From positions 1-34,818 of the forward strand of contig WTFW01000097.1 of assembly GCA_011523785.1 (NCBI GenBank): DNA of 34,818 nucleotides, read 5' to 3'. Below, one piece after another: positions 16,034-29,829 of the stretch. Both the position numbers and the translations under genes were made by a program. The notes under the pieces are model-generated. The model was not told where the DNA came from and did no database searches. It saw only the letters and a program-made list of their open reading frames with translations. The DNA is from Chloroflexota bacterium. GTDB lineage: Bacteria > Chloroflexota > UBA11872. The stretch's first letter is position 1. The number at the start of each line of letters is the position of its first letter.

Positions 16034-17353
16034 CTACTTCGCCGTACAGGCCCCCAGCGCCTCGTCCACAATCTCAAGCGTTCGGTCCACGTCGTCCTCG
16101 CTGTGCGCAATCGAGATATAGAACTTCTCGTTCGGCACGATCAAGATCCCCCGCTTGACGCATTCGATGGCGAACTGTGTGCCCATCTCGCGGTCGTTGT
16201 CCAGCAGGTCGACCCACTGTGTGGGATTGGAGTTTTCCATGAAGCGCACGCCGAACACCATGTCCTCGCCAAGCGCCTGCACGGGAATTCCGTGGCGACG
16301 GCCGGCTTCTTCGATCCCCGCACGTAAACGCCCGCCGATGCGGTGCAGCTGGTCGTAGACGCCTGGCTCGCGCAGGATGTCCATCGCGGCCAGCGCGGCC
16401 GTCGCAGCCACCGGGTTGCCGTTAAACGTTCCGCTGGCCCAGGCAATCGTGTTCGGCGCCCGGCCCACGTTGCCGTAGAGATCCATGATGTCGCGGCGTC
16501 CGGCGATAACGGCCAGCGGAAACCCGCCGGCCATCGCCTTGCCGTAGCAGGCCATGTCCGGGACCACCCCGTAAGCCTCCTGCGCGCCTCCCCACGCAAG
16601 CCGGAAACCGGTGACGATCTCGTCATAGATCATGATGATCCCGTGTCGGTCGCACGCCTCGCGAACGGCTTCCAGGAAACCCGGCACTGGCCGCAGCACG
16701 CGCTGCAGCGGCTCAATGATGATCCCCGCCAGTTCGTCCGCGTACTCCTCGATCACTTGCAGGGCGAACTCGGTGTCGTTATACGGCGCGACCAGGATCT
16801 CGTCGGCCAGCACGCCCGGTACCCCCAGCGAGTCGGGCTCGGCGTGCGGATAGTCGCTGGCTTCACCCGGCACCGTGCCGAACATCGCGAAGTCGCCGGT
16901 CCCATGCCAGCCGCCTTCGAACTTCAGAATCTTGGGCCGGCCCGTGAATGCCCGCGCCGCGCGAAGTGACAGGAATGTTGCGTCCGATCCAGTCGTCACA
17001 TACCGAACCTGCTCGGCACACGGAACCGCCTCGATTACTTGCTCCGCCAGCCGGATCGCCGGTTCGTTAAGGAAATAAAACGTCGTGCCTTGCCGAATCT
17101 GGTGCTCGACGGCTTCCAGGATGCGCGGATGGCAATGACCGACCAGCATTGGGCCGGAGCCCATCAGGTAGTCGATGTACTCACGGCCGTCAACGCTGAT
17201 CAGGTGGCTCCCTCGGCCCTCGCGAATGACCACGTCCTCCGAACGCGGGAGCATGAGGAATCCAAGAGCCCCGCCGCTCATCACGTTTCCGGCAAGTTCG
17301 AGGAGCTCGCCATTCGAGGCCGACGTCTGGCCCGGTTGTGTCGAAGCTTCCAC
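16034..17353 (-). CDS. Class III PLP aminotransferase / glutamate-1-semialdehyde aminomutase-like
   Basis: A 439-residue fold-type I PLP enzyme. Landmarks are TTGSDATFLSLRAARAFTGR (phosphate-binding region), KILKFEGGWHGTGDF, MIYDEIVTGFRLAWGG with Asp244 (pyridine-N ligand), and Lys272 in CYGKAMAGGFPL (Schiff base). These match the GSA-aminomutase branch of class III aminotransferases. No haem-pathway neighbours are present, and it pairs with a 2-hydroxyacid dehydrogenase. A catabolic or amino-acid transaminase role is therefore more likely than hemL. It starts at ATG 17353-17351 and is divergent from the Gfo/Idh/MocA gene across about 130 bp. Confidence 0.9.
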   Translation of the reverse strand: MEASTQPGQTSASNGELLELAGNVMSGGALGFLMLPRSEDVVIREGRGSHLISVDGREYIDYLMGSGPMLVGHCHPRILEAVEHQIRQGTTFYFLNEPAIRLAEQVIEAVPCAEQVRYVTTGSDATFLSLRAARAFTGRPKILKFEGGWHGTGDFAMFGTVPGEASDYPHAEPDSLGVPGVLADEILVAPYNDTEFALQVIEEYADELAGIIIEPLQRVLRPVPGFLEAVREACDRHGIIMIYDEIVTGFRLAWGGAQEAYGVVPDMACYGKAMAGGFPLAVIAGRRDIMDLYGNVGRAPNTIAWASGTFNGNPVAATAALAAMDILREPGVYDQLHRIGGRLRAGIEEAGRRHGIPVQALGEDMVFGVRFMENSNPTQWVDLLDNDREMGTQFAIECVKRGILIVPNEKFYISIAHSEDDVDRTLEIVDEALGACTAK

Positions 17354-17482
17354 CGCTTACCTAGCCTTCAGGAAGTCGCCGCAACAGCCCGCGGCGCTGG
17401 GTCGCGCATACTACACGCGGCATCGATTCGGTCGGCTGCCAGACCCAAGGCGCGGAGAATTCGATATGGCGGAGATCGGGTT

Positions 17483-18532
17483 GTGAGCGGCGGCGTTCCC
17501 GAGTCATCCCGCCTTCGGATTGCGCTTGTAGGCGCGGGCGGCTTCGGCACCTATACCTGCGAGCTGATCGATCGCCAGCCCGAGATCGAGCTGGTCGGTG
17601 TGGCCGACACCGACGGCGGCAAGGCTCGGCGCCTCGGAGTCGATCGCGGCGTGCCGTACTGGACGGACCACCGGGCGCTGCTCGACGAGAGCGACTGCGA
17701 CGCCGTGGCCATCGTGACCACGCACTCCACGCATCGCGATATCGCGGTGGACGCCGCGGCGGCGGGTCGGCACATCTTCTGCGAAAAGACCATGGCCATT
17801 ACTGTGGCCGACTGCCACGACATGGTGGAATCCGCAAACACGCACGGCGTCAAGCTCATGGTTGGCCACAAGCGCCGCTTTCGTCCGGCCTCGGCTGCCA
17901 TAGGGCGCGCACTGACAACCGACGGGCTTGGCCGCCCCCTCGCCGTCAACGTTCGCGGCTTCTTTGGCCGGCAAATCACCGGCTTCTGGCGCGAGCGGTC
18001 GCTGTGCGGGGGGCTGCTCTACTGGGCCGGGGTTCACGATGTGGACACGCTGCGGTACCTCTTTGGCGAAGTCGCCTCCGTTTACGCGGTACTTGGGCCC
18101 AAGTTGCGTCCCGAGGTCTCCGACCAGGAGGACGCAATATCTGTTGCCGTGACGTTCCATAACGGCATGGTCGGCTCACTGCAGGTATCCACCTTCTATC
18201 CGATGGCCACCTATCAGACCGCCTTCGGCTTCGACATCGTCTGTGAGCGCGGCGGTATCAGCTACAACCCGCACGACCACACCATCACAACTCAACTCGA
18301 AGACCAACCTCCAAGCGTGGTTCGCCTTGAGCACAATTCGCCCGACGGCGCATATGACAAGGAGTGGTCCAGCTTCGCCGCCTGGGTGCTGCGAGACGAA
18401 ACTCCGGTCCTGACCGGCGAGGACGGTCTTCGCTGCGTGGAAATCCTGCAGGCCGCCTACTTGAGCGCCGCCACTGGAACGCGAATCGACCTTCCGCTCG
18501 ACCGAAACGAGCGGCGTCCGTTTGACGGATAG
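17483..18532 (+). CDS. Gfo/Idh/MocA family NAD(P)-dependent oxidoreductase
   Basis: A 349-residue protein from GTG 17483, supported by GGAGATCGG 3-11 nt upstream. The Rossmann motif is ALVGAGGFGTYTCE (Gly-rich loop 17-22), with Asp42 in GVADTDGGKA selecting the adenosine ribose. EKTMAITVADC (101-111) is the variant of the family 'EKP' motif with the catalytic Lys102. GHKRRFRPA and AGVHDVDTLRYLFGEV (family 'GvH.iD..r.l.G') follow in the C-terminal alpha/beta domain. These enzymes oxidise or reduce hydroxyls on sugars, inositols and related rings. It is followed by the amidase gene after 11 nt. It likely heads a long plus-strand operon through the transporter genes. Confidence 0.92.
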   Translation: MSGGVPESSRLRIALVGAGGFGTYTCELIDRQPEIELVGVADTDGGKARRLGVDRGVPYWTDHRALLDESDCDAVAIVTTHSTHRDIAVDAAAAGRHIFCEKTMAITVADCHDMVESANTHGVKLMVGHKRRFRPASAAIGRALTTDGLGRPLAVNVRGFFGRQITGFWRERSLCGGLLYWAGVHDVDTLRYLFGEVASVYAVLGPKLRPEVSDQEDAISVAVTFHNGMVGSLQVSTFYPMATYQTAFGFDIVCERGGISYNPHDHTITTQLEDQPPSVVRLEHNSPDGAYDKEWSSFAAWVLRDETPVLTGEDGLRCVEILQAAYLSAATGTRIDLPLDRNERRPFDG

Positions 18533-19386: not shown

Positions 19387-19449
19387 CGGTCGATGCGGCT
19401 ATGATGCGCGCCGGAATCCGGGCACAACCGCTTGAATCGGGGACGCAGC

Positions 19450-20391
19450 GTGGCAGCAGTCGGGCAGTTTGTGGGTCAATCCGCGTCCGAAGCGCCAGTT
19501 CGCAGCGAATGGAACCTGGCCTGGCGCCGGTTGCGACGCAACAAGGCTGCGATGGCCGGTCTCGTCGCGCTGATCCTGATCTCGCTGGCCGCGATCTTTG
19601 CCGACGTGATCGCCACCGAGACCGAGAACCACTTCGATATTGCGTCTGAGGGCTTGCCGCCGCTCGCCGAGCGCCTTGATCCAATCGATGACTGGCGTCC
19701 CTGGGGCCAGCGACACCTCCTGGGAACGGACGACATTGGACGGGATGTTTTCAGCCGCATCGTGCGAGGTGCACGCATTTCGCTCCGAATCGGCTTTTCA
19801 GCCGTGACCATCTCGCTAATTTCGGGCAGCATTCTTGGACTGGTGGCGGGTTACTTCCGCCGCTGGCCGGACATGCTGATCAGCCGCATTCTCGACGTGA
19901 TGCTGGCTTTTCCCGGAATCCTTCTGGCGATGACCGTTGTCGCGTCGCTCGGACCCGGCCTCAATAACGCCATGCTTGCCCTGGGTGTCGCTGGCATTCC
20001 CTTCTACGGTCGAGTCGTGCGAGGCACCACCCTTGCTGCGAGGGACCTCACCTATGTCCGTGCGGCACGTGCCGTGGGAATGTCAGACGTACGTATCATG
20101 CTGCGTCACATCCTTCCCAATGTAGTCAGTCCCGTGCTCATCATGGCGACTCTTGGCTTGGGTGGAGCAATCCTGGCGTCGGCCACCCTCAGTTTCTTGG
20201 GCCTTGGCGCCGAGTCGCCCGCGCCTGAGTGGGGCTATGAACTTTCCAAGAGCCGCAATCTGTTGCGCGCCTATTGGTGGATCGCCACTTTCAACGGCTT
20301 TGCCATCGCAATTACGGTTCTCTCGATCAATCTCCTGGGCGACGGGCTTCGCGAAGCGCTCGATCCCCAGGCAAGTTCATGGTCGGACTAG
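19450..20391 (+). CDS. ABC transporter permease, DppC/OppC type
   Basis: About 313 residues. I chose GTG 19450 because GGGGA lies about 6 nt upstream; TTG 19432 would add six residues. It has a cytoplasmic N-terminus ending in LAWRRLRRNKAAMAGLVA, a first membrane segment (LILISLAAIFADVIA), a periplasmic loop with GTDDIGRDVFSRIVRGARIS (the family 'GTD..GRDv.sr...G.r.sl'), then five more segments. The EAA loop, which contacts the ATPase, reads ARAVGMSDVRIMLRHILPN. This is the C-type permease of a dipeptide/oligopeptide/nickel-type importer. It precedes the binding-protein gene, an uncommon order (usually binding protein, B, C). Confidence 0.93.
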   Translation: MAAVGQFVGQSASEAPVRSEWNLAWRRLRRNKAAMAGLVALILISLAAIFADVIATETENHFDIASEGLPPLAERLDPIDDWRPWGQRHLLGTDDIGRDVFSRIVRGARISLRIGFSAVTISLISGSILGLVAGYFRRWPDMLISRILDVMLAFPGILLAMTVVASLGPGLNNAMLALGVAGIPFYGRVVRGTTLAARDLTYVRAARAVGMSDVRIMLRHILPNVVSPVLIMATLGLGGAILASATLSFLGLGAESPAPEWGYELSKSRNLLRAYWWIATFNGFAIAITVLSINLLGDGLREALDPQASSWSD

Positions 20392-20486
20392 TTCGTCCAC
20401 GACTCCATAGCACTGCGCGCCGGTATTAGGTACGCTGGCGCATTCGTCGAGGCGCCGTAGTTCTGCGCCTCAAGGGGAGGGTGCAC

Positions 20487-22475
20487 ATGATCAAGACGCC
20501 GAGCGTGAGTCGGCGGGCCGTTATCCGAACTGGCCTGGCCGGCCTGGCCGGTGGCGTCGGCGCCGCAGCGCTGGCTGCGTGTGGTGAGACGCAGGTCGTA
20601 ACGAAGGAAGTCCCGATCGAAACGACCGTGGTCAAGGAAGTTCCGGTCGAGAAGATCGTCCGTGAGACCGAGGTCCGAGAAGTCCCGGTCGAGAGAATCG
20701 TGACCCAGCAGGTCGACAGGGTCGTCACCAAGACGGTCGAAGTCCAGAAGGTCGTCGAGGTTCCGGTTGAGGTCCAGGTCGAGAAGGTCGTCGAGGTCGA
20801 GAAGGTCGTCGAGAAGGTCGTGGAGAAGATCGTCCAGCAGGCCGCCGAGCGCGCGCCGGGCATCGACATCTACAACCTTGACGAGTCCGTACCCATTGGC
20901 GCCAAGCCGTGGGATCCCAAGCCCGGTGGCGAAGTCAGCTACATGACCTTCGGCAACCCCACCGGCTTTGACCCGGCAACCTGGGGCGGCCGCAGCGCCG
21001 AGCCGGCAGCGGTGATGTACGACCTGCTCTATACCTACGGCAAGGGCAACCTGATCTACCCGCATTTGGCTTCGGATCTGCCGGAGCCGGCAGACGACAA
21101 ACTCTCCTGGGTGATCCCGTTGCGCAACGACGTCGTCTTCCACGACGGCGAACCGTTCAATGCCGATGCGGCCGTCTTCAACTTCCAACGCTTCCTGGAC
21201 CCGGATCTGGCCCGAGGTCATGTGATCCGTGACGTGGCATCCATGGGCGGCGTGGAAAAGGTGGACGACTTCAAGATTCGTATCCACACCGCGCAGCCGC
21301 AGTCACCCCCCTCATTCCTTCACTCGATTGCCCACCAGCACACCGGCATGGCATCGCCCAAGGCGGTCACCGAGCGCGGCGAAGCCTTCAGCCGTGACCC
21401 GGTCGGAACCGGCCCCTTCAAGTGGTCGGGTGTGTGGGAAGACGACGTCAAGGTCGTCTTCGACCGCAACGAGGACTACAACTGGGGTCCGTCATTCCTC
21501 GCGCACCAGGGCGCGCCGTATCCGGACCGGTTGCGTATCCAAATCCTTGGGTACAACATGACGGACAACGCCGCTGCCTTTGAAGCCGGCGAGGTGGACA
21601 TCTGCCTGAACTGGTCGTTCGCGGACTACAAGCGCGTGTCCGAGAACGCCAAGTACCACGTCATCGGCTACGCGGCCCCCGGCATGGGCCAGTACATGCC
21701 GCTGCACACGCAGCTCTGGCCGCTGGATGACCTGAACGTGCGCAAGGCGTTGCTCTTCGGCGTCGACCGCCGCACCGTCACGGTGCGCGCCAACGGCGGC
21801 ACCGCCCCGCTCAACATCAGCAACCTGCTGGTGCCGGGCACAATCGGCCGTAGCGCCGCGGCAGGCGAGTTGTACACGTACGACGTCGGGATTGCCAACC
21901 AGATCCTCGACGAGGCCGGCTACGCCAAGGGCGAGGACGGTTATCGCTACGCCTCGGACGGCCGGCGGCTGGAAATAAGCTACCCGGACCGCGGCGACCC
22001 GGTGGTCGAGCTGTTCAAGCTGGACGTGGAGAAGAACCTCGGAATCTTCGTGGACATCCCGAAGATGGACGGCGCCACGCACCGCGAGGGCGCCTCCAAG
22101 GGTCTCTACCACACCACCTGGATCGGCGTTGCGGCGCCGAGTGGCGACGTGATGTACGACCGCTTCCACACCGCCTCGTACGGTGGAGCGAACCGCTCAT
22201 ACTCGTTCTTCGAGTACGACGGGATCCCCGAGTCGGCAACGCCGAACGCGAAGATCGATGGGCTGCTCGAGGCGGCTCGCGCGAGCTTCGACGCGGAAGA
22301 GGCCAAGGCTCTCTGGGAAGAGGCCGAGCTCTACCTGATGGAGAACGCGGTTGCCATCCCGTTGGTCCACGACTACCTGCCGTGGCTGACGAACCCCGAC
22401 CGCATCGGCGGCGAGTTGTTCCTCGGAATCGACTACCTGCCGTTCTTCGGTCAGTTCTACAGCACCCAGGAGTAG
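20487..22475 (+). CDS. Family-5 extracellular solute-binding lipoprotein with long charged stalk
   Basis: 662 residues. ATG 20487 is chosen because the strong AGGGGAGG lies 6 nt upstream; GTG 20481 would touch it. The N-terminus has twin arginines (VSRRAVIRTG), a hydrophobic stretch and a lipobox LAAC with Cys32. It therefore looks like a Tat-exported lipoprotein. Residues 35-118 are a low-complexity Val/Glu/Lys stalk (EVPVEKIVRETEVREVPVER, VEKVVEVEKVVEKVVEKIV), probably a coiled coil or rod holding the binding domain away from the membrane. From residue 140 the SBP_bac_5 domain follows (LASDLPEPADDKLSWVIPLR, VVFHDGEPFNADAAVFNFQR, FSRDPVGTGPFKW). Such stalks are common in Chloroflexota. Ligand: a peptide-like or other small solute, not predictable here. 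Confidence 0.93.
   Translation: MIKTPSVSRRAVIRTGLAGLAGGVGAAALAACGETQVVTKEVPIETTVVKEVPVEKIVRETEVREVPVERIVTQQVDRVVTKTVEVQKVVEVPVEVQVEKVVEVEKVVEKVVEKIVQQAAERAPGIDIYNLDESVPIGAKPWDPKPGGEVSYMTFGNPTGFDPATWGGRSAEPAAVMYDLLYTYGKGNLIYPHLASDLPEPADDKLSWVIPLRNDVVFHDGEPFNADAAVFNFQRFLDPDLARGHVIRDVASMGGVEKVDDFKIRIHTAQPQSPPSFLHSIAHQHTGMASPKAVTERGEAFSRDPVGTGPFKWSGVWEDDVKVVFDRNEDYNWGPSFLAHQGAPYPDRLRIQILGYNMTDNAAAFEAGEVDICLNWSFADYKRVSENAKYHVIGYAAPGMGQYMPLHTQLWPLDDLNVRKALLFGVDRRTVTVRANGGTAPLNISNLLVPGTIGRSAAAGELYTYDVGIANQILDEAGYAKGEDGYRYASDGRRLEISYPDRGDPVVELFKLDVEKNLGIFVDIPKMDGATHREGASKGLYHTTWIGVAAPSGDVMYDRFHTASYGGANRSYSFFEYDGIPESATPNAKIDGLLEAARASFDAEEAKALWEEAELYLMENAVAIPLVHDYLPWLTNPDRIGGELFLGIDYLPFFGQFYSTQE
20590..20840. 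repeat. Low-complexity repeat coding for the Val/Glu/Lys stalk
   Basis: Imperfect short repeats built on GTCGAGAAGGTCGT and GAAGTCCCGGTCGAG recur many times, coding for EVPVE, VEKVV and EKVVEK units. The DNA repeats follow the protein heptad-like pattern and the codon choice (GTC, GAG, AAG). They make the region prone to slippage or length change between strains. The antisense frame yields a spurious Asp/Leu repeat. Confidence 0.8.
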
Positions 22476-22561: not shown

Positions 22562-23539
22562 ATGGGCTCATACATTCTGCGCCGCGGTCTCTACACCATC
22601 CCCGTGCTCTTCGGGGTGTTGCTGACCGTATTCGTCCTGATGCGCCTCGTTCCCGGCGATCCCATCGCGCTGTTCTATGCGACCGGCGGAGTCGGCGACT
22701 CAGGCGCCACCGCGGGTAGCGGTGGTGAAGTAAGCCGGGCGGCGCTCGAGAGGCTGCGCGAGAGCTACAACCTTGACAAATCCGTTCCACACCAGTTTGT
22801 GCTGTATGTGCGGGATGTTTTTCGCGCCGATTTCGGCAACTCGATCCAGTACCGTCGCCCCGTCACTGACATCATCAAGGATCACGCACCAGCGACCATC
22901 CAGCTAACCGTCGCGGGCATGGCCGTGGCTCTGGTGATTGGATTCGGAGCCGGCATCATCTCGGCGATTCGCCGCCACTCGATGGCCGACTACAGCGCCC
23001 AGGTCTTCGCCATTCTTGGCGTGTCCTTCCCCAGCTTCTTCCTGGCCACGATCCTCATCTTGATCTTTGCTATCAACCTCAACTGGCTGCCCGTAATCTC
23101 AAACGGAATCGGGCCGCAACTCCTTATGCCGGCCATCACCCTCGGTGCCGCCGCGGCGGCCATTCTGGCCCGGCTCACTCGCTCATCAATGCTCGACGTC
23201 CTATCCCGGGACTACATCCGCACGGCCCGAGCCAAGGGACTCATCGAATCGAAGGTCATTTGGATACACGCGCTGCGAAACGCCCTCATACCAGTCATCA
23301 CCGTTGTTGGCCTTGAGTTCGGCTCGCTGCTGGGTGGCGCTGTCGCAATTGAAGCGGTCTTTTTCCGCCAGGGCCTGGGAATGCGACTTGTTGAAGCCAT
23401 TGAAGCGCGCGACTACCCCGTCATTCAGGCCCTGGTCTTGCTTGCCGCTGTCGTCTACGCCGTCGTCAATCTGCTCGTGGACATCCTGTACACGTATGTT
23501 GACCCACGCGTACGCCTGACAGACCAGACCGCAAGGTAG
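22562..23539 (+). CDS. ABC transporter permease, DppB/OppB type
   Basis: A 325-residue membrane protein from ATG 22562. The opening SYILRRGLYTIPVLFGVLLT and MRLVPGDPI are the classic B-type permease start. FGNSIQYRRPVTDIIKDHAP is the family 'fG.S......Pv...i....p.Tl.l' stretch. Six membrane passes follow. The EAA-type loop reads TARAKGLIESKVIWIHALRN, and the end contains YPVIQALVLLAAVVYAVVNL, then DILYTYVDPRVR. It should form the channel with the DppC-type permease at 19450-20391 and use the two ATPases coded on the opposite strand at 29873-31962. A strong hairpin precedes it. Confidence 0.95.
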   Translation: MGSYILRRGLYTIPVLFGVLLTVFVLMRLVPGDPIALFYATGGVGDSGATAGSGGEVSRAALERLRESYNLDKSVPHQFVLYVRDVFRADFGNSIQYRRPVTDIIKDHAPATIQLTVAGMAVALVIGFGAGIISAIRRHSMADYSAQVFAILGVSFPSFFLATILILIFAINLNWLPVISNGIGPQLLMPAITLGAAAAAILARLTRSSMLDVLSRDYIRTARAKGLIESKVIWIHALRNALIPVITVVGLEFGSLLGGAVAIEAVFFRQGLGMRLVEAIEARDYPVIQALVLLAAVVYAVVNLLVDILYTYVDPRVRLTDQTAR

Positions 23540-23581: not shown

Positions 23582-24523
23582 ATGAAACTCTGCATTTCGA
23601 CAGCCTGCTATCGCTGGATGCTCGACGCCCATCGACGCCGGGATCGGCCTGAACACCGCAACTTCGGTTGGCCCCCAGCGTTTGTTCAGTCGCTTCCCCC
23701 TCCGCCACCAGACGTTACGCGCCACGACTGGATGCTGGCCAAGACTCGCGACCTGGGACTGGAAGGCTTCTACATGCACGCCGCCGACGTGGGTGACGTC
23801 GCGACAGTCGAAGACTTCGGCGCCCGCATGCGCGCGGCCGGTCTCATCTTCAACGGCGGCCTGACCGCCAATTGGGCGGCCGCGGCCGATGAGTGGGACC
23901 GCGACTTCCGCGAACGGGCCATCGAACACGTCGAACTCAACGCCCGCAGCGGCGCGACCATCGCCACGGTCACCCACCTCATGGCCGGCGTTCACAACCA
24001 CTTCTCGACCGATCCCCCCATCGACGAACAGATTGAGCGCGCCATTCGCAACTTCAGCACTGTTCTCCCGGCCTGCCGCCAGCACGGAGTCACGCTCGCA
24101 TTCGAGAATCACATGGACTATCGCCTTAGCGAAGTTGTGGCCGTTGTAGAAGGCCTCAGCTCCGAGTTCGCCCGCATCACCCTCGACACCGCGAACCCAT
24201 TCCTGGTGCTGGAAGACCCCCTCGAAGGCGCCTGCCTGGCGGCGCCCTATACCGTGGCGGTGCACCTCAAGGACTTCTCGGTTCATCCGCTCACCGACAC
24301 CTGGGAACCCGAACTCCATTGGGCACCCGTCGGCCGCGGCGACTCGCCGATTGCCCAGATTCTCGATCTGCTCCAGGCCCAAGCGCCCGACCCGGACAAT
24401 CTTCTTGCGCACATTGAGATCGCCGGTCTCCCTCAGACTGATCCCGACCAATGGGTCCGCTCAAGCGCTTCGCACCTTCGCCGGCACGCAGCCGACCACT
24501 TCCCCAATCAGGCTGCGGCGTGA
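23582..24523 (+). CDS. Xylose-isomerase-like TIM-barrel protein (sugar isomerase/epimerase), copy 1
   Basis: A 313-residue AP-endonuclease-2-fold protein. The metal ligands expected for this fold are present: Glu175 in TLAFENHMD, Asp202 in ITLDTANP, His228 in VAVHLKD and Glu279 in LAHIEI. A Pro-rich loop (SLPPPPPDV) is inserted early. Enzymes of this fold interconvert ketoses, inosose or keto-sugar acids, or act as dehydratases, using a divalent metal. It follows the DppB-type permease after 42 nt and overlaps its paralogue by 4 nt. The complete ligand set suggests an active enzyme. Substrate unknown; it is probably the imported solute or its first product. Confidence 0.87.
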   Translation: MKLCISTACYRWMLDAHRRRDRPEHRNFGWPPAFVQSLPPPPPDVTRHDWMLAKTRDLGLEGFYMHAADVGDVATVEDFGARMRAAGLIFNGGLTANWAAAADEWDRDFRERAIEHVELNARSGATIATVTHLMAGVHNHFSTDPPIDEQIERAIRNFSTVLPACRQHGVTLAFENHMDYRLSEVVAVVEGLSSEFARITLDTANPFLVLEDPLEGACLAAPYTVAVHLKDFSVHPLTDTWEPELHWAPVGRGDSPIAQILDLLQAQAPDPDNLLAHIEIAGLPQTDPDQWVRSSASHLRRHAADHFPNQAAA

Positions 24524-25533
24524 GGCTCGGACTCGCGGCCGACACCTATCGGTGGATTGCCTATCCCTGGATGCGTGCGGACCGTCCGGACTTCCGCGCC
24601 ACCAGCCACTACGCTCCGCACGTCCTCTCAGTCACCCCGCCGCAAGCTGACTCGGACGTACCCGACTGGCTCCTCGACCGGGTCCTGGCGCATGAACTCA
24701 CCGCGCTGACGATGGACTTAGGTTTACTGGGTAGTCGGGAGCAGGCATCAACGCTCGGGGCCCGCTGTGCCGACGCCGGTGTCGACTTGCTGGGCAGCGT
24801 GTCGGTTGACCTGGTCGCCGCGCCCAGTCGCTGGGGGACCGTGTCGCCTGATGTGTCAAATGCCCGCTTCGACCCCGCGAGCGCTGGCGTGTTGCGGACT
24901 GGCTGGACTGGCGACAGCGAGGCGGCGATAGCCGCCACAGCCATGCGCTGGGCCGCCGAGGCCGGCGTGCCCATACTCAGCCTCGTCCACGGCCAGCCGG
25001 ACCGCGCCAACCGCTATTCGCCCCAGCCCAGCCTCGACGACCAACTACAACGCATCGAGTCCAATGTGCGCACGCTTCTCCCACTCGCAGCGGATTTGGG
25101 CGTGACGCTAGCCCTCGAACCGCACATGGACTTCCGCTGCGCCGAACTCGTCCGCGTCGTTGAGGCCATCGCGTCGCCCAATCTTCGCCTCGTCCTCGAC
25201 ATCGCCAGCCCGCTGGCGGTCAACGAAGACCCCCTCGACGCCGCCCGTCTCGCTGCACCCTATGTCGTGGCCACCCACCTTCGCGACATGCGCGTCCAGG
25301 CCCTGACCGAAGTCGCCACCGGGGCGCTCTTTCACACCCCAGTAGGCGAGGGCCACGTCCCAGTAGGTCAAATCCTGGACACCCTCTACGACCAATCGCC
25401 GGACTCGAGCACGGTCATCCACTGCCTTAAGATCGTCACTCGGCCGGAACTCGATGCCGAAGCCTGGCTCGGCGCCTCGCTGGCTACGGTTCGGAATTAC
25501 GCCTCGCACAAAGCGTCTCGCGGCTCGGCGTGA
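24520..25533 (+). CDS. Xylose-isomerase-like TIM-barrel protein, copy 2 with incomplete metal site
   Basis: 337 residues from GTG 24520, whose last two bases start the TGA of copy 1 (GTGA overlap). It is clearly a paralogue: TLALEPHMDFRCAELVRVVE, LVLDIASPLAV and LAAPYVVATHLRDMRVQALT align with copy 1. Glu200, Asp227 and His253 are kept, but the final Glu (HIEI in copy 1) reads HCLK, with Leu303 at the ligand place. It may bind metal differently, work with copy 1 as a non-equal dimer, or be a regulatory partner. No frameshift or stop disturbs it, so it is under selection rather than decaying. The PhyH gene follows after 22 nt. Confidence 0.83.
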   Translation: MRLGLAADTYRWIAYPWMRADRPDFRATSHYAPHVLSVTPPQADSDVPDWLLDRVLAHELTALTMDLGLLGSREQASTLGARCADAGVDLLGSVSVDLVAAPSRWGTVSPDVSNARFDPASAGVLRTGWTGDSEAAIAATAMRWAAEAGVPILSLVHGQPDRANRYSPQPSLDDQLQRIESNVRTLLPLAADLGVTLALEPHMDFRCAELVRVVEAIASPNLRLVLDIASPLAVNEDPLDAARLAAPYVVATHLRDMRVQALTEVATGALFHTPVGEGHVPVGQILDTLYDQSPDSSTVIHCLKIVTRPELDAEAWLGASLATVRNYASHKASRGSA

Positions 25534-25555: not shown

Positions 25556-26302
25556 ATGAACGACCACGATCGCTACCTGTTTGACCTACAGGGTTACGTC
25601 ACCACTCCCAACGCGATTGACGCCGACACGGTCGCCGCGCTGAACGCCATCCTCGACCAGAAGATCGCTGACGAAACGCCCCCCGACGCCACCACCCATC
25701 GATTCGTCAACCTGCTCGATTGGGGTCAGCCATACATCGACTTGCTTGATCCTCCGAAGATCGTTCCTTACCTGGAGGCCATCCTTGGATCCAGGTTCCG
25801 GTTGGACCACACATACCTGGACATCATTCGCGGCGGGCTAAGCCCCATCGGTGCGACGCTCCACGGCGGCGCCATGCCCTTCAACCCGGTGCAGTACTTC
25901 CACTACAGCAACGGCGAGTTTCACAACGGCTTGTCCGTCGTCGCGTTCAACCTCGCCGACGTCAATCCCGGAGACGGCGGCTTTGCCTGTGTGCCCGGCA
26001 GTCACAAGAGCAACCTGCCATTCCCGGATGAATGGAAGGACCTCACCGACGAGCACGACACCGTCAAGCGAGTGACCGGGCCGGCCGGTACGGCCATCAT
26101 CTTCACCGAGGCACTAACCCACGGCCCCCTGCCGTGGACCGCCGACCACGAGCGACGCACGATCTTCTACAAGTACAGCCCTAACCCCTTGGCCTGGTGG
26201 GGCGAGTACCCGACGCCCGCCGGCCTGGATGGACTCACCGAGCGCCAGCGGGCGATCCTGGAAGGTCCCAACGCCCGCTATCCCCAACGTGGTATCCGCT
26301 AG
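25556..26302 (+). CDS. Phytanoyl-CoA dioxygenase (PhyH) family protein with HxG motif
   Basis: 248 residues from ATG 25556 with GGGAGG 6 nt upstream. Family landmarks are LADVNPGDGGFACVPGSHKS (residues 133-152, the 'v.p.nG.l.~vPGSH' strand), His189 in EALTHGPLPW, and Arg200 eleven residues later, which fits the distal iron His and the 2-oxoglutarate Arg of PhyH. The proximal iron motif, normally HxD, reads HGG (His103-Gly-Gly105). Spacing to His189 is 86, against 89 in human PHYH. So the Asp ligand is replaced by Gly, as in Fe/2OG halogenases, or this branch uses other ligands such as His123. It ends the plus-strand operon, 9 nt from the convergent gene. Confidence 0.85.
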   Translation: MNDHDRYLFDLQGYVTTPNAIDADTVAALNAILDQKIADETPPDATTHRFVNLLDWGQPYIDLLDPPKIVPYLEAILGSRFRLDHTYLDIIRGGLSPIGATLHGGAMPFNPVQYFHYSNGEFHNGLSVVAFNLADVNPGDGGFACVPGSHKSNLPFPDEWKDLTDEHDTVKRVTGPAGTAIIFTEALTHGPLPWTADHERRTIFYKYSPNPLAWWGEYPTPAGLDGLTERQRAILEGPNARYPQRGIR

Positions 26303-26311
26303 CGCCTGCCG

Positions 26312-27955
26312 TCAGTTGACGGGCGGGAAGTAAGCCAGCCCCGCGCCCAGATCGTCCATCGCCACAACCGCGTCGCCCCGCAAGCGCGCCCCAATCTCGT
26401 GGTCCTGGTGGCGAATCGTCAGGTCGCGCTCTGCCAGCGGCAAACGGATTCCCACCGCGTTCCCAACACGCGGTCCACGCAGCAAGATTCGCCCGTCAGC
26501 GACGAATTGTCGGGCCTGCAGACCATCCACCGACAGTTCGTCCAAGTTGGCCCAGGACGGAACACGCACCGCAATATCCCCCTCGACCTTTGGCGTAATA
26601 CGCAGGGCATCGCCCGTGTACGGCGACTCAACCCGCACCGCATCACTCTCGTAGTCGAACAGCATGTTGATCTTCGTCACCCCACCGCCGGTCGCGGCAA
26701 CTTCTCGATGTACCGCGCAAAGTGAGGCGGTGGCGCCGCCCACGATGTCAATGCTCGGAGTGACTTCGTTCTTGCCCAGCGGCAGATGGCCGTACACGGC
26801 ATTGAATCCGAACAGCCCGAGCAGACGCATGCGCAAATCCCGGCGCTCATCGCCGCCCGGTACCTGGTCCATGAAGCTCAGATCCCTAACCTGCGACGGC
26901 AGCAGCTGGGACCGCAGGTATCGCTCGGCGTCCTCAAAATACGAGTCACCGAAGTAGCGTCCAAGGATCAGCGCCGTCTCGATCACGTCGCCCACGTTAT
27001 TCATCTCACCCTGTTCCGGGTGAAAGTTGGGATGGTGGCGCTCGCGCACCCAGCCCACCTCGTCGCGAATCACTCGCAGCCCGTTGTCATAGAAGGCCCG
27101 CACTCGGCTCAGCAACCCACGGTCGTCCGACAGGCTGCCCTGCAGGGCCATCCCTGACAGCGTGCAGGTCGTCGAATGCGTGTGCGCGCCCAGCCTGTCT
27201 GCGTCGTAGGAACCATCGGAGGGGAAAAACCGATTCGTGGCGTGTGCCGCTAAGTCCGCTGCCAATTCCAGCGCGGCGTCGGACCCGGTTGCGTCGTAGA
27301 GCTTCGTCAACGGCCCGATGGCCCGCCCGATACCCTCCACGAACGTTGGCCTCGCGGTCATTGGCAACCCGTAGGCCGCTTGCAGGCCGTCCTGGTCCCA
27401 ATCGCGTTCGGCGCTCCAGAACCGCCGAACGTCGGCAATCAGGGCCTCAGCCGCATGCACTGCCCGGTCGGATGCCCGATACCGAGCCAACGCATGCAGC
27501 CCGTGCACGGCCTCCCGGATCGAGTGCTCGTCCACCGAGGTCAGCGGTCCGCCCGGTGCGCTGTGGTTGCACGGCAGCGGTCCAGCGCTCAGCGAAAAGA
27601 ATGACGCTTCCGTGTGTTGCCTCACCATGTCTTCGTCCGCTTCGATGCCCAGCGCATCCTCCGCAGAAAGCAGCGCGTCCAGGTGGCGTCCTGACAACTG
27701 AATAGCCCCGTGATAGGGACTGAACCCAAGCCATCCGTCCGGCCAGATGCGCGTGTACATGTACGGATAGCCTTGATCCGCGGGATTGAACACCTGCCCC
27801 ATCGCCCGACAGGCCAACTCGACGGCCGCGGGAATGCTGGTCGTGTTGACGTTTGCCACCCGCGCCGGCGGGATGCGCGACTTGTCAAACGGCGGTCCTG
27901 GAATGAACGCGTGAGCGGTCGGCGACGGCGGTTGGCGCAGCGGCACGTCGGTCAT
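26312..27955 (-). CDS. (alpha/alpha)-barrel glycoside-hydrolase-like protein (GH127/DUF1680-like)
   Basis: 547 residues from ATG 27955-27953. The central 350 residues are helical-repeat-like, with paired-helix stretches such as SIREAVHGLHALARYRASDR and AIGPLTKLYDATGSDAALEL. MYTRIWPDGWLGFSPYHG and HPNFHPEQGEMNNVGDV are the most His/aromatic-rich places. The C-terminal part has VEGDIAVRVPSWANLDELSV and ILLRGPRVGNAVGIRLPL. These resemble the GH127/DUF1680 beta-domain pattern 'l.lRiPsWa...v.vnG' and 'gd.v.l.lP'. No signal peptide is present. Its ATG overlaps the stop of the propeller gene (ATGA), so it is the last gene of the minus-strand operon. Family level is tentative. Confidence 0.6.
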   Translation of the reverse strand: MTDVPLRQPPSPTAHAFIPGPPFDKSRIPPARVANVNTTSIPAAVELACRAMGQVFNPADQGYPYMYTRIWPDGWLGFSPYHGAIQLSGRHLDALLSAEDALGIEADEDMVRQHTEASFFSLSAGPLPCNHSAPGGPLTSVDEHSIREAVHGLHALARYRASDRAVHAAEALIADVRRFWSAERDWDQDGLQAAYGLPMTARPTFVEGIGRAIGPLTKLYDATGSDAALELAADLAAHATNRFFPSDGSYDADRLGAHTHSTTCTLSGMALQGSLSDDRGLLSRVRAFYDNGLRVIRDEVGWVRERHHPNFHPEQGEMNNVGDVIETALILGRYFGDSYFEDAERYLRSQLLPSQVRDLSFMDQVPGGDERRDLRMRLLGLFGFNAVYGHLPLGKNEVTPSIDIVGGATASLCAVHREVAATGGGVTKINMLFDYESDAVRVESPYTGDALRITPKVEGDIAVRVPSWANLDELSVDGLQARQFVADGRILLRGPRVGNAVGIRLPLAERDLTIRHQDHEIGARLRGDAVVAMDDLGAGLAYFPPVN

Positions 27956-29829
27956 GCGGTATAGCGCCAAACTTCGCCACGCCCCAGGGCGGCATGAATC
28001 GTTCGCCGCTCTGCGTCCCCCGCCGCAATGCTCACCCGTTCCACCGCGTGCCCTTCCAGCGGCCCATCCATGCGAGACCACTCGCGGCCTTCGCTGCTCG
28101 AGAGATAAACCCCGTCGCTGGTGGCCGCCGCGGCAAGTCCGTCTCGCGCGAAGTCAGGCGAAAGTGTCACCTGGCGCATGGCCACGCCGCCCTCCGCCAC
28201 CCGGACGCCTGACCATGGACCGCGGCCCGACGATGGCGGCATCGCAATGCGGTCGCGGGCGGCAAGGAGCAATGGCCCAATGTCAGGCTTGAAGGTTGGG
28301 AGTATTGCCAGCGAAGCCCAGCCCAAAGCCGAGTCGTACTCGACCCAGGGCTTCCATGTTTCTCCTGCGTCGTTGGACCGGATCACCACCAGGCGCTCTG
28401 AATCGCCCGCGGCGGCAACCATCGCGCGGTCCCGGGCAAAGTTGGGCGAATAGGCCAGTGCGTGCACGTCGCTGCGGTCCAGTCCCGTCCAGACCGAGCG
28501 CCACGATTCACCGCCGTCATGTGAGAGATGCAGAAGCCCGTCCTGTCCTCCGACGGTCACCTGACCATCGGCAGGGAAGTCGGGCGAAAACTCCAACAGG
28601 GTCGCCGCCGACTCAGCGGAAATGCCCCCGATTCGGACCCACGACTGCGCTCGGTCAACGCTCCATATCACTTGACCGCCGGCGACTCCGCCGGCGATTC
28701 CGTCATCCGAGAAACCCGGCGCCAGTCTGATCGCCGTCACCGGTCCCAGACCCGGGTCTTCCAGCGTTGTCGCCCAGCTTGCCCCCGCATCGCGTGAAAC
28801 CAACACGCCGTCCTGTAGCGTAGCGAGCGCCAGGGTGCCGTCCGCGGCGAACGTCGGCGACACGGAAAGATCAAGGATCGGCCGATTCACCAGCCCCGAG
28901 TTGGCCGCAGCCGGTGGGCCATTCCCTGCTTGTCGGTAGACGCCGCCCTTGTTGGTCCCAACCAGCACGCAACCATCGGAAACTGCGACGCACAGGGCCG
29001 AGACGTTACCTCCGAGAGCGACGGGTTCTTCCTGCCAGGTCATTCCGTCGTTGCTCGAGCGAACCAATCGGCCGCCGCCCGTCACGGCGACAATCTCCCG
29101 GCCTGCGGACACGGCGACTCCGTTGACCGTATCGCCGTCCGCCGTCCAGACCGCTTCCCAGTGTTCGCCGCCGTCGGTCGAGCGCAACAGCCGCCCGGAA
29201 ACCGTTCCCGCAATCGCGGTCGCCCGGTCGACCCAGGCGCAACACTCCAGCGGATCGGCATCGGCGCGCGCAACCCGCTGCCACGTCCGGCCGACGTCCG
29301 TCGATCGCAGCAGGACTCCCGTCGCGGTTGCGGCCAGAATTGCGCCGCCGTCCGAAGCGCCGGGAGCGATGGCCACGGCTGAGACTTCAGTGTCTTCCAA
29401 TCCGCTGGCGAAGCCATTCCAGCTCCGGCCCCGGTTTCGGGAGACGTAAACCCCCTCGTGTTGGGTTCCGGCCACGACTACTTCGTCGCGCGCAAAGTCC
29501 GGAGAGATGGCAACGCGCGTTACAGTCGGCCGCACGCCCCAGAATTCCTGCCGGAACCAGCTTGCGCCACGGTCGTACGACATGTGCAGGCCTGACACCG
29601 CCGTCGCGGCCGCCACGACGCCATCGCGCTCGAAGTCCGGTGAGACGGCCACGTCCTGGACGAAGGGGCTGATCAGCCCCTTCCCAAGCCAATCCCATCG
29701 GTCGCCACGATCAACGGACCGAAACACCCCGGCCAGGGTCGCGGCAAAAGCTGTGCCATCGCGGTCGCTTGCGCAGGCGATTGACCCAACCGTCCCGCCT
29801 TCAAGGGCGAGCAGGCGCTCCCAACTCAT
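27952..29829 (-). CDS. Asp-box (BNR/VPS10-like) beta-propeller protein, 11 repeats
   Basis: 625 residues from ATG 29829. I count eleven Asp-box-like motifs: SVDRGDRW, SYDRGASW, SRNRGRSW, STDVGRTW, STDGGEHW, SSNDGMTW, SRDAGASW, SVDRAQSW, SHDGGESW, SNDAGETW and SSSEGREW. Between them the strand 'v..SPdFa.Dg.v.aat..GvyrS' recurs. This suggests one large or two stacked propellers. No signal peptide is evident. It is coupled by a 4-nt overlap to the hydrolase-like gene and lies 43 nt after the OppF-like ATPase, so it belongs to the transporter-hydantoinase operon. It is a distant relative of the smaller propeller at 7408-8388. Function unknown; ligand binding or a scaffold is plausible. Confidence 0.87.
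   Translation of the reverse strand: MSWERLLALEGGTVGSIACASDRDGTAFAATLAGVFRSVDRGDRWDWLGKGLISPFVQDVAVSPDFERDGVVAAATAVSGLHMSYDRGASWFRQEFWGVRPTVTRVAISPDFARDEVVVAGTQHEGVYVSRNRGRSWNGFASGLEDTEVSAVAIAPGASDGGAILAATATGVLLRSTDVGRTWQRVARADADPLECCAWVDRATAIAGTVSGRLLRSTDGGEHWEAVWTADGDTVNGVAVSAGREIVAVTGGGRLVRSSNDGMTWQEEPVALGGNVSALCVAVSDGCVLVGTNKGGVYRQAGNGPPAAANSGLVNRPILDLSVSPTFAADGTLALATLQDGVLVSRDAGASWATTLEDPGLGPVTAIRLAPGFSDDGIAGGVAGGQVIWSVDRAQSWVRIGGISAESAATLLEFSPDFPADGQVTVGGQDGLLHLSHDGGESWRSVWTGLDRSDVHALAYSPNFARDRAMVAAAGDSERLVVIRSNDAGETWKPWVEYDSALGWASLAILPTFKPDIGPLLLAARDRIAMPPSSGRGPWSGVRVAEGGVAMRQVTLSPDFARDGLAAAATSDGVYLSSSEGREWSRMDGPLEGHAVERVSIAAGDAERRTIHAALGRGEVWRYTA

Follow-up and report, generated by a model that had tools for sequence, protein, structure and literature searches.

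The window, by which we mean the whole stretch of DNA analysed (34,818 nucleotides), contains a run of plus-strand genes that ends in a PhyH-family gene whose product reads HxG at the iron-binding HxD motif. The run consists of the following genes, in order:

19432–20391, plus strand: OppC-type ABC permease (Pfam)
20481–22475, plus strand: family-5 solute-binding protein of an ABC transporter (Pfam)
22562–23539, plus strand: OppB-type ABC permease (Pfam)
23582–24523, plus strand: xylose-isomerase-like TIM barrel 1 (PF01261, E = 1e-23)
24451–25533, plus strand: xylose-isomerase-like TIM barrel 2, start codon uncertain (PF01261, E = 1e-19)
25556–26302, plus strand: HxG PhyH-family Fe/2OG oxygenase, 248 aa (open reading frame; PF05721, E = 4e-8; AlphaFold2 model)

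The operon described in the original prediction, with a transporter and two isomerases, is thus real, the “isomerases” being the two xylose-isomerase-like TIM barrels recognized by Pfam; for the second of these, L-ribulose-5-phosphate 3-epimerase models match far under their cut-offs. Upstream of the run lie a Gfo/Idh/MocA oxidoreductase and a carbon–nitrogen hydrolase. The oxidoreductase (17039–18529, plus strand) is nearest to inositol 2-dehydrogenase models, below their cut-off, and because its Gfo/Idh/MocA domain begins 158 residues into the frame, the true start is probably later. Directly downstream of the PhyH gene, on the opposite strand, is a 589-codon frame (26312–28081) with no Pfam or NCBIfam match, which recurs in five of the loci compared (the window included). 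No natural-product cluster, of the orthosomycin kind or another, was seen in the neighbourhood within the window, in keeping with the earlier remark that the setting is not typical of one. The neighbours differ in other genera, where we found a sugar-type solute-binding protein (L212), a sulfatase (L214), and a dehydrogenase (L217), so the substrate may differ too. In several of the Chloroflexota loci examined the HxG gene lies near uptake genes, and in one it lies beside sulfatase genes.

The gene itself begins at an ATG (25556) immediately preceded by GGGAGG, a good ribosome-binding sequence. PF05721 (PhyH) is the sole Pfam match of the protein at E ≤ 1, scoring 34.2 bits against a curated cut-off of 22; the same search gave no match to PF05118 (AspH). 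The AlphaFold2 model has a mean pLDDT of 88.7, falling to 79 over residues 101–110, the stretch containing His103, where confidence in the model is middling. For comparison with the family, 220 PhyH-matching open reading frames were reduced to 163 by removing identical sequences and matches shorter than 150 residues, and the addition of HygX (see below) gave an alignment of 164 rows; one row gapped at His103 (L201) was set aside, leaving 163 scorable rows. The residues of interest are:

25862–25864, plus strand: His103, predicted proximal iron ligand (His in 163/163 scored rows; gapped in the one further row)
25865–25867, plus strand: Gly104, middle residue of the HGG motif
25868–25870, plus strand: Gly105, at the Asp place of HxD (Gly or Ser in 49, Asp in 113, and Glu in 1 of the 163 rows)
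26108–26110, plus strand: Glu185, acid four residues ahead of the distal histidine (position −4), proposed carboxylate substitute (Asp or Glu in 49/49 HxG/S rows, which are not independent, vs. 2/113 HxD rows)
26120–26122, plus strand: His189, predicted distal iron ligand (invariant in the alignments)
26153–26155, plus strand: Arg200, binding the C5 carboxylate of 2-oxoglutarate by homology (invariant in the A1 alignment and in the HxG and HxD clusters)

The role given to Arg200 is taken from PHYH and AspH. The HxD…H facial triad is absent from the window protein, which has HGG instead: His103, His189, and Arg200 align with the canonical PhyH HxD…H…R in the 164-row alignment, so that His103-Gly-Gly105 falls at the HxD site as had been proposed from spacing, and the spacings used there (86 residues between the histidines, and +11 from the distal histidine to the arginine) are correct.

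The motif is well conserved. On the question, raised earlier, of whether HGG is fixed in the family, relatives at ≥41% identity read HGG in 34 of 36 rows (a count that includes the window protein twice) and HGS in the other two, both close copies; a sequencing accident is not the explanation for a motif kept across so many rows. In more distant members the motif is HLG, HSG, HRG, HTG, or HDG, with glycine at +2 in all. Ten relatives at 92–98% identity were found, all in Chloroflexota/Chloroflexi MAGs. For five of them (92–94% protein identity) pN is 0.03–0.04 against a pS of 0.40–0.45, and for a sixth (98% identity) 0.009 against 0.15, indicating that the gene is maintained under purifying selection. 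We reject a degenerate or inactive protein on account of this selection together with the clade-wide conservation of the motif. Within its own genome the protein stands apart: among the 20 alignable of 24 PhyH matches it is the sole HxG protein, the other 19 being HxD. A congeneric genome (G273) carries the HGG gene as a tandem duplicate (L085, 3983–5773).

In a tree of 98 cluster representatives, 25 HxG rows, HygX among them, group with one HxE row in a single clade with support of 100/95, and the split persists with an SH-aLRT of 80 when the motif columns are masked. As judged from the sequences, HxG is therefore a trait of a whole clade within PhyH. By sequence comparison, HygX is the closest protein of solved structure (phmmer E = 1.8e-5; profile E = 1e-29, vs. 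5e-16 for the next), and it is also the best fold match of the AlphaFold2 model (Foldseek E = 4e-17; VIA Z 25.2 with an rmsd of 3.2 over 221 residues, the next enzyme reaching Z 22.3). HygX has HGG at 102–104, Glu202, His206, and Arg217 (numbering from our alignment), and so shares with the window protein the HGG motif, the glutamate at −4, the arginine at +11, the clade, and the fold. According to their PDB titles, the HygX crystals (4xc9, 4xca, 4xcb, 4zpi) hold nickel with 2-oxoglutarate, and iron; metal and cosubstrate are thus bound by an HGG member of the clade that lacks the HxD carboxylate. The two proteins nevertheless have only 20–22% identity, and HygX belongs to an aminoglycoside pathway, whereas the window gene lies in a transporter/isomerase operon. 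The abstract of the 2015 HygX study by McCulloch is said to describe variation in metal coordination, and that work may already cover Glu202. HygX and its relatives are presented as oxygenases proposed for orthoester formation, HygX itself in hygromycin B, in excerpts from a review (PMC8234114). For the clade defined here, we found a proposed reaction for HygX and for no other enzyme. A copy of HygX, 96.5% identical over the 228 aa searched, lies on a Streptomyces sp. SAT1 plasmid (L231, 8589–9365), beside APH(7'') in a cluster that also has glycosyltransferases and a gene for a radical SAM enzyme, an arrangement resembling a plasmid-borne hygromycin B cluster. The plasmid, phage, and viral collections yielded few relatives outside Chloroflexota. 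A 229-kb contig classed as viral (IMGVR_UViG_3300028592_000004; L117, 2818–4571) has a tandem pair of PhyH genes that read HGG and encode Glu at −4; the second of them had no match in the phage collection.

The feature that most clearly sets the HxG proteins apart, besides the motif itself, is the acid at −4. When rows are grouped into clusters at 80% identity, Asp or Glu occupies this position in 25 of 25 HxG clusters vs. 2 of 72 HxD clusters, a pattern that has to be read in the light of a tree consistent with one origin of HxG, with the 49 rows not independent and the number of independent pairs being 1. No column other than that of Glu185 has an acid in 100% of HxG clusters and only rarely (3%) in HxD clusters; the other class-skewed acid columns are Asp140 (92% vs. 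1%), Glu199 (76% vs. 8%), and Asp84 (72% vs. 10%). Aspartate replaces the glutamate in 3 of the 25 HxG clusters, and it does so in the lineage of L076–L078, so that the negative charge survives the change of residue. PHYH, EctD, and the other canonical PhyH oxygenases share with the window protein PF05721, the jelly-roll fold, the distal histidine, and the arginine, but combine HxD with a non-acid at −4 where the window protein combines HGG with Glu185; in the solved HxD enzymes the residue is Cys (EctD), Pro (PHYH), or Gly (DhiD). Three further plasmid PhyH proteins outside the 163-row table, all HxD and read by eye, have Gly, Asp (a Rhodococcus protein with HTD), and Cys at this position.

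The canonical enzyme appears to depend on its carboxylate: PHYH D177A/G is reported as inactive in excerpts from PMC12816917, which implies that PHYH needs it. The original prediction had allowed that another carboxylate or a histidine might serve in the window protein, naming His123, Asp135, and Glu185. Glu185 is the best supported of these, given the invariant −4 acid of the HxG rows. His123 falls away, as it is not conserved and is Tyr in many close relatives, and so does Asp135, which is found in 82% of HxD clusters and 84% of HxG clusters and, being equally common in both classes, replaces nothing. We also considered His116 as a substitute ligand and rejected it, as it varies in close relatives. 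It is very improbable that the carboxylate comes from Asp140, in the PGDGG turn, or from some other residue: an acid is present at 140 in 23 of 25 HxG clusters and in 1% of HxD clusters, a skew second only to that of Glu185, but some members of the clade lack the acid (L070 has Gly and L068 has Gln), and the residue sits in the turn before the model strand 142–145, where HxD clusters most often have Asn (33/72) and which would presumably be far from the metal.

A precedent for an acid at this very place comes from another family. Human AspH has an HXG…H motif (excerpts from PMC12816917 and PMC10947486), and as described in the available part of PMC13168262 its iron ligands are H679 and H725, while Asp721 hydrogen-bonds an iron-bound water in the vacant carboxylate site; the D721A variant is substantially less active. 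The same excerpts record no halogenation by AspH, and the authors suggest that a water held so tightly makes it harder for a (pseudo)halide to bind. Asp721 sits four residues ahead of the distal His725. As far as these partial sources go, AspH thus has in common with the window protein the HXG…H motif and the acid at −4, and it is a hydroxylase whose iron lacks a carboxylate ligand; it differs in the arginine, which is at +10 from the distal histidine in the hydroxylase vs. +11 for Arg200, in the acid, which is Asp and not Glu, and in belonging to a separate sequence family.

The bacterial PF05118 proteins sampled show a like pairing. Among 17 rows, 11 are HxG, 5 are HxD, and 1 is YFG, proportions in which HxG is over-sampled, the query having been an HxG protein. 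The sample comprises 15 of 40 listed records, from 102 matching plasmids and with the LpxO copies of clinical strains omitted, and 2 of 4 extra loci, the other two being weak matches that were left unused. Asp stands at −4 in 10 of the 11 HxG rows; in the eleventh (L238) a stop precedes the position, and the same frame read past the stop has Asp there. In the five HxD rows the residue is a non-acid in three (Tyr, Thr, Asn) and Glu in two. The YFG row (L250) has Tyr for the proximal histidine and Asp at −4. Its gene, on an Aulosira laxa plasmid (283–858), adjoins an adenylation-domain gene; here the proximal histidine itself is lost. The PF05118 tree is weakly supported, with strong support for 1 of its 12 inner branches, and places two of the HxD rows that have a non-acid at −4 within the HxG rows; such nesting would mean that switches have occurred within the family.

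We therefore consider the window protein to be a HygX-like Fe(II)/2OG oxygenase rather than a halogenase, in which Glu185 functionally replaces the lost carboxylate, directly or through a water molecule, and we put the probability of this reading at roughly 70%. Our own observations supply the motif and its covariation with the acid, the clade, the gene neighbourhood, and the fold of the model, while the mechanism of AspH comes from the published work. The iron would be held by His103 and His189 and the 2-oxoglutarate anchored by Arg200, with Glu185 standing in for the carboxylate lost in the change from HxD to HxG. This could happen in two ways. Glu185 might itself bind the iron from the side of the distal histidine, which is conceivable because glutamate is one methylene longer than the Asp721 of AspH; or, like Asp721, it might hydrogen-bond a water in the carboxylate site and so keep halide out. 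With the vacant site filled by a carboxylate or a tight water, halide would be excluded and oxygenation would be expected. The ferryl intermediate would then oxidize a C–H bond in a small polar compound. This substrate, probably derived from a sugar or a cyclitol, would enter through the adjacent transporter and go on to the pair of isomerase-like enzymes. Both the type of reaction and the class of substrate are inferred, the latter from HygX, for which a sugar substrate is assumed, together with an operon that has an importer and sugar-isomerase-like enzymes.

The original prediction had put first a SyrB2-type halogenase. In this rival reading, extended to the SyrB2/WelO5/BesD type, chloride would fill the site left by Gly105 and be transferred to the substrate. 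HxG/HxA is indeed the published motif of 2OG halogenases (excerpts from PMC10947486 and PMC2767507). SyrB2 and CytC3 (TIGR01762) share with the window protein a PhyH-like fold and the want of a carboxylate at +2 from the proximal histidine, and SyrB2 is among the matches to the A1 profile (E = 6e-12), though below HygX, EctD, PHYH, and others. The HxG motif, however, is also found in AspH and HygX, and SyrB2 reads HxA where the window protein reads HGG (PMC2767507, in part). The Asp-to-Gly change is moreover insufficient on its own, judging by the P4H D414G variant in the same excerpts. The invariant acid at −4, in the place where the hydroxylase AspH holds its water by the partial account in PMC13168262, may likewise exclude halide. 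The neighbouring genes are a transporter and isomerases, with no natural-product cluster seen in the window. The position in SyrB2 equivalent to −4 (four residues ahead of H235) is Ser231, which we take to line the chloride pocket; the −4 position would then lie beside the vacant site, and an acid there should repel halide. The window protein is not listed by the NCBIfam chlorinating-enzyme model TIGR01762 at E ≤ 1, a negative to be read with the HMMER filters in mind, which can drop weak matches; across 400 Chloroflexota genomes the same model gave weak matches (E ≤ 0.001) in 83 and matches above its cut-off in none. Taken with the kinship to HygX, an orthoester-forming oxygenase according to the proposal in the review excerpts, the missing TIGR01762 listing and the invariant acid leave the halogenase reading unsupported, and we regard it as quite improbable.

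Somewhat less improbable, but still unlikely, is an iron site of just two histidines whose third place is taken by water alone, Glu185 being a substrate-binding or structural residue outside the metal site. It is common for residues to be specific to a clade, and a single HxG origin fits the tree; the Asp-to-Gly variant of FIH retains some activity (PMC10947486, in part), so a carboxylate is not strictly needed; and an acid at −4 does occur in a few HxD proteins (2/113 in the PhyH table, 1/3 of the further plasmid proteins, and 2/5 in PF05118), which means that it can have other roles. What argues against such a site is that the charge is kept through the exchange of Glu and Asp, in every scored HxG/S row, and that the pairing recurs in the AspH family, where the residue, in the part of PMC13168262 cited above, is shown acting on the iron-bound water.

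Returning to the oxygenase reading with Glu185 as the substitute, the window protein adds a member to a kind known from HygX, and we found no statement of the covariation between HxG and the −4 acid in the literature searched, which was covered through listings and passages, with subscription papers mostly outside. Genome mining commonly takes HxG as the sign of a halogenase. We tentatively suggest that HxG…[DE]xxxH may be a second predictive form of the facial triad, arisen at least twice (in HygX-like PhyH proteins and in AspH) and marking oxygenases that dispense with the HxD carboxylate, as opposed to HxG halogenases, and that in the Glu-bearing PhyH branch the glutamate may bind the iron directly, the ligand having been relocated to the strand of the other histidine. 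If HxG with a −4 acid does mark enzymes of the hydroxylase type, sequence alone would be enough to re-annotate many PhyH proteins from the environment. HygX, known from an antibiotic pathway, is placed in a branch lying near uptake genes in several of the Chloroflexota loci examined.

The system also bears on the way in which a carboxylate ligand could shift from one strand of a fold to another. Two of the HxD paralogues in the genome of the window (HVD; L005, 2547–3458, and L019, 1054–2091) also have Glu at −4 and are possible intermediates bearing both carboxylates. The single HxE row, from Cupriavidus, combines HHE with Glu at −4. On Cupriavidus necator plasmids, an HHG protein (L118, 5974–6603) and an HHE protein (L119, 5890–6771) are 78.5% identical, both with Glu at −4; having Gly in one and Glu in the other at the key place, they offer a naturally occurring comparison for tests of the ligand swap.
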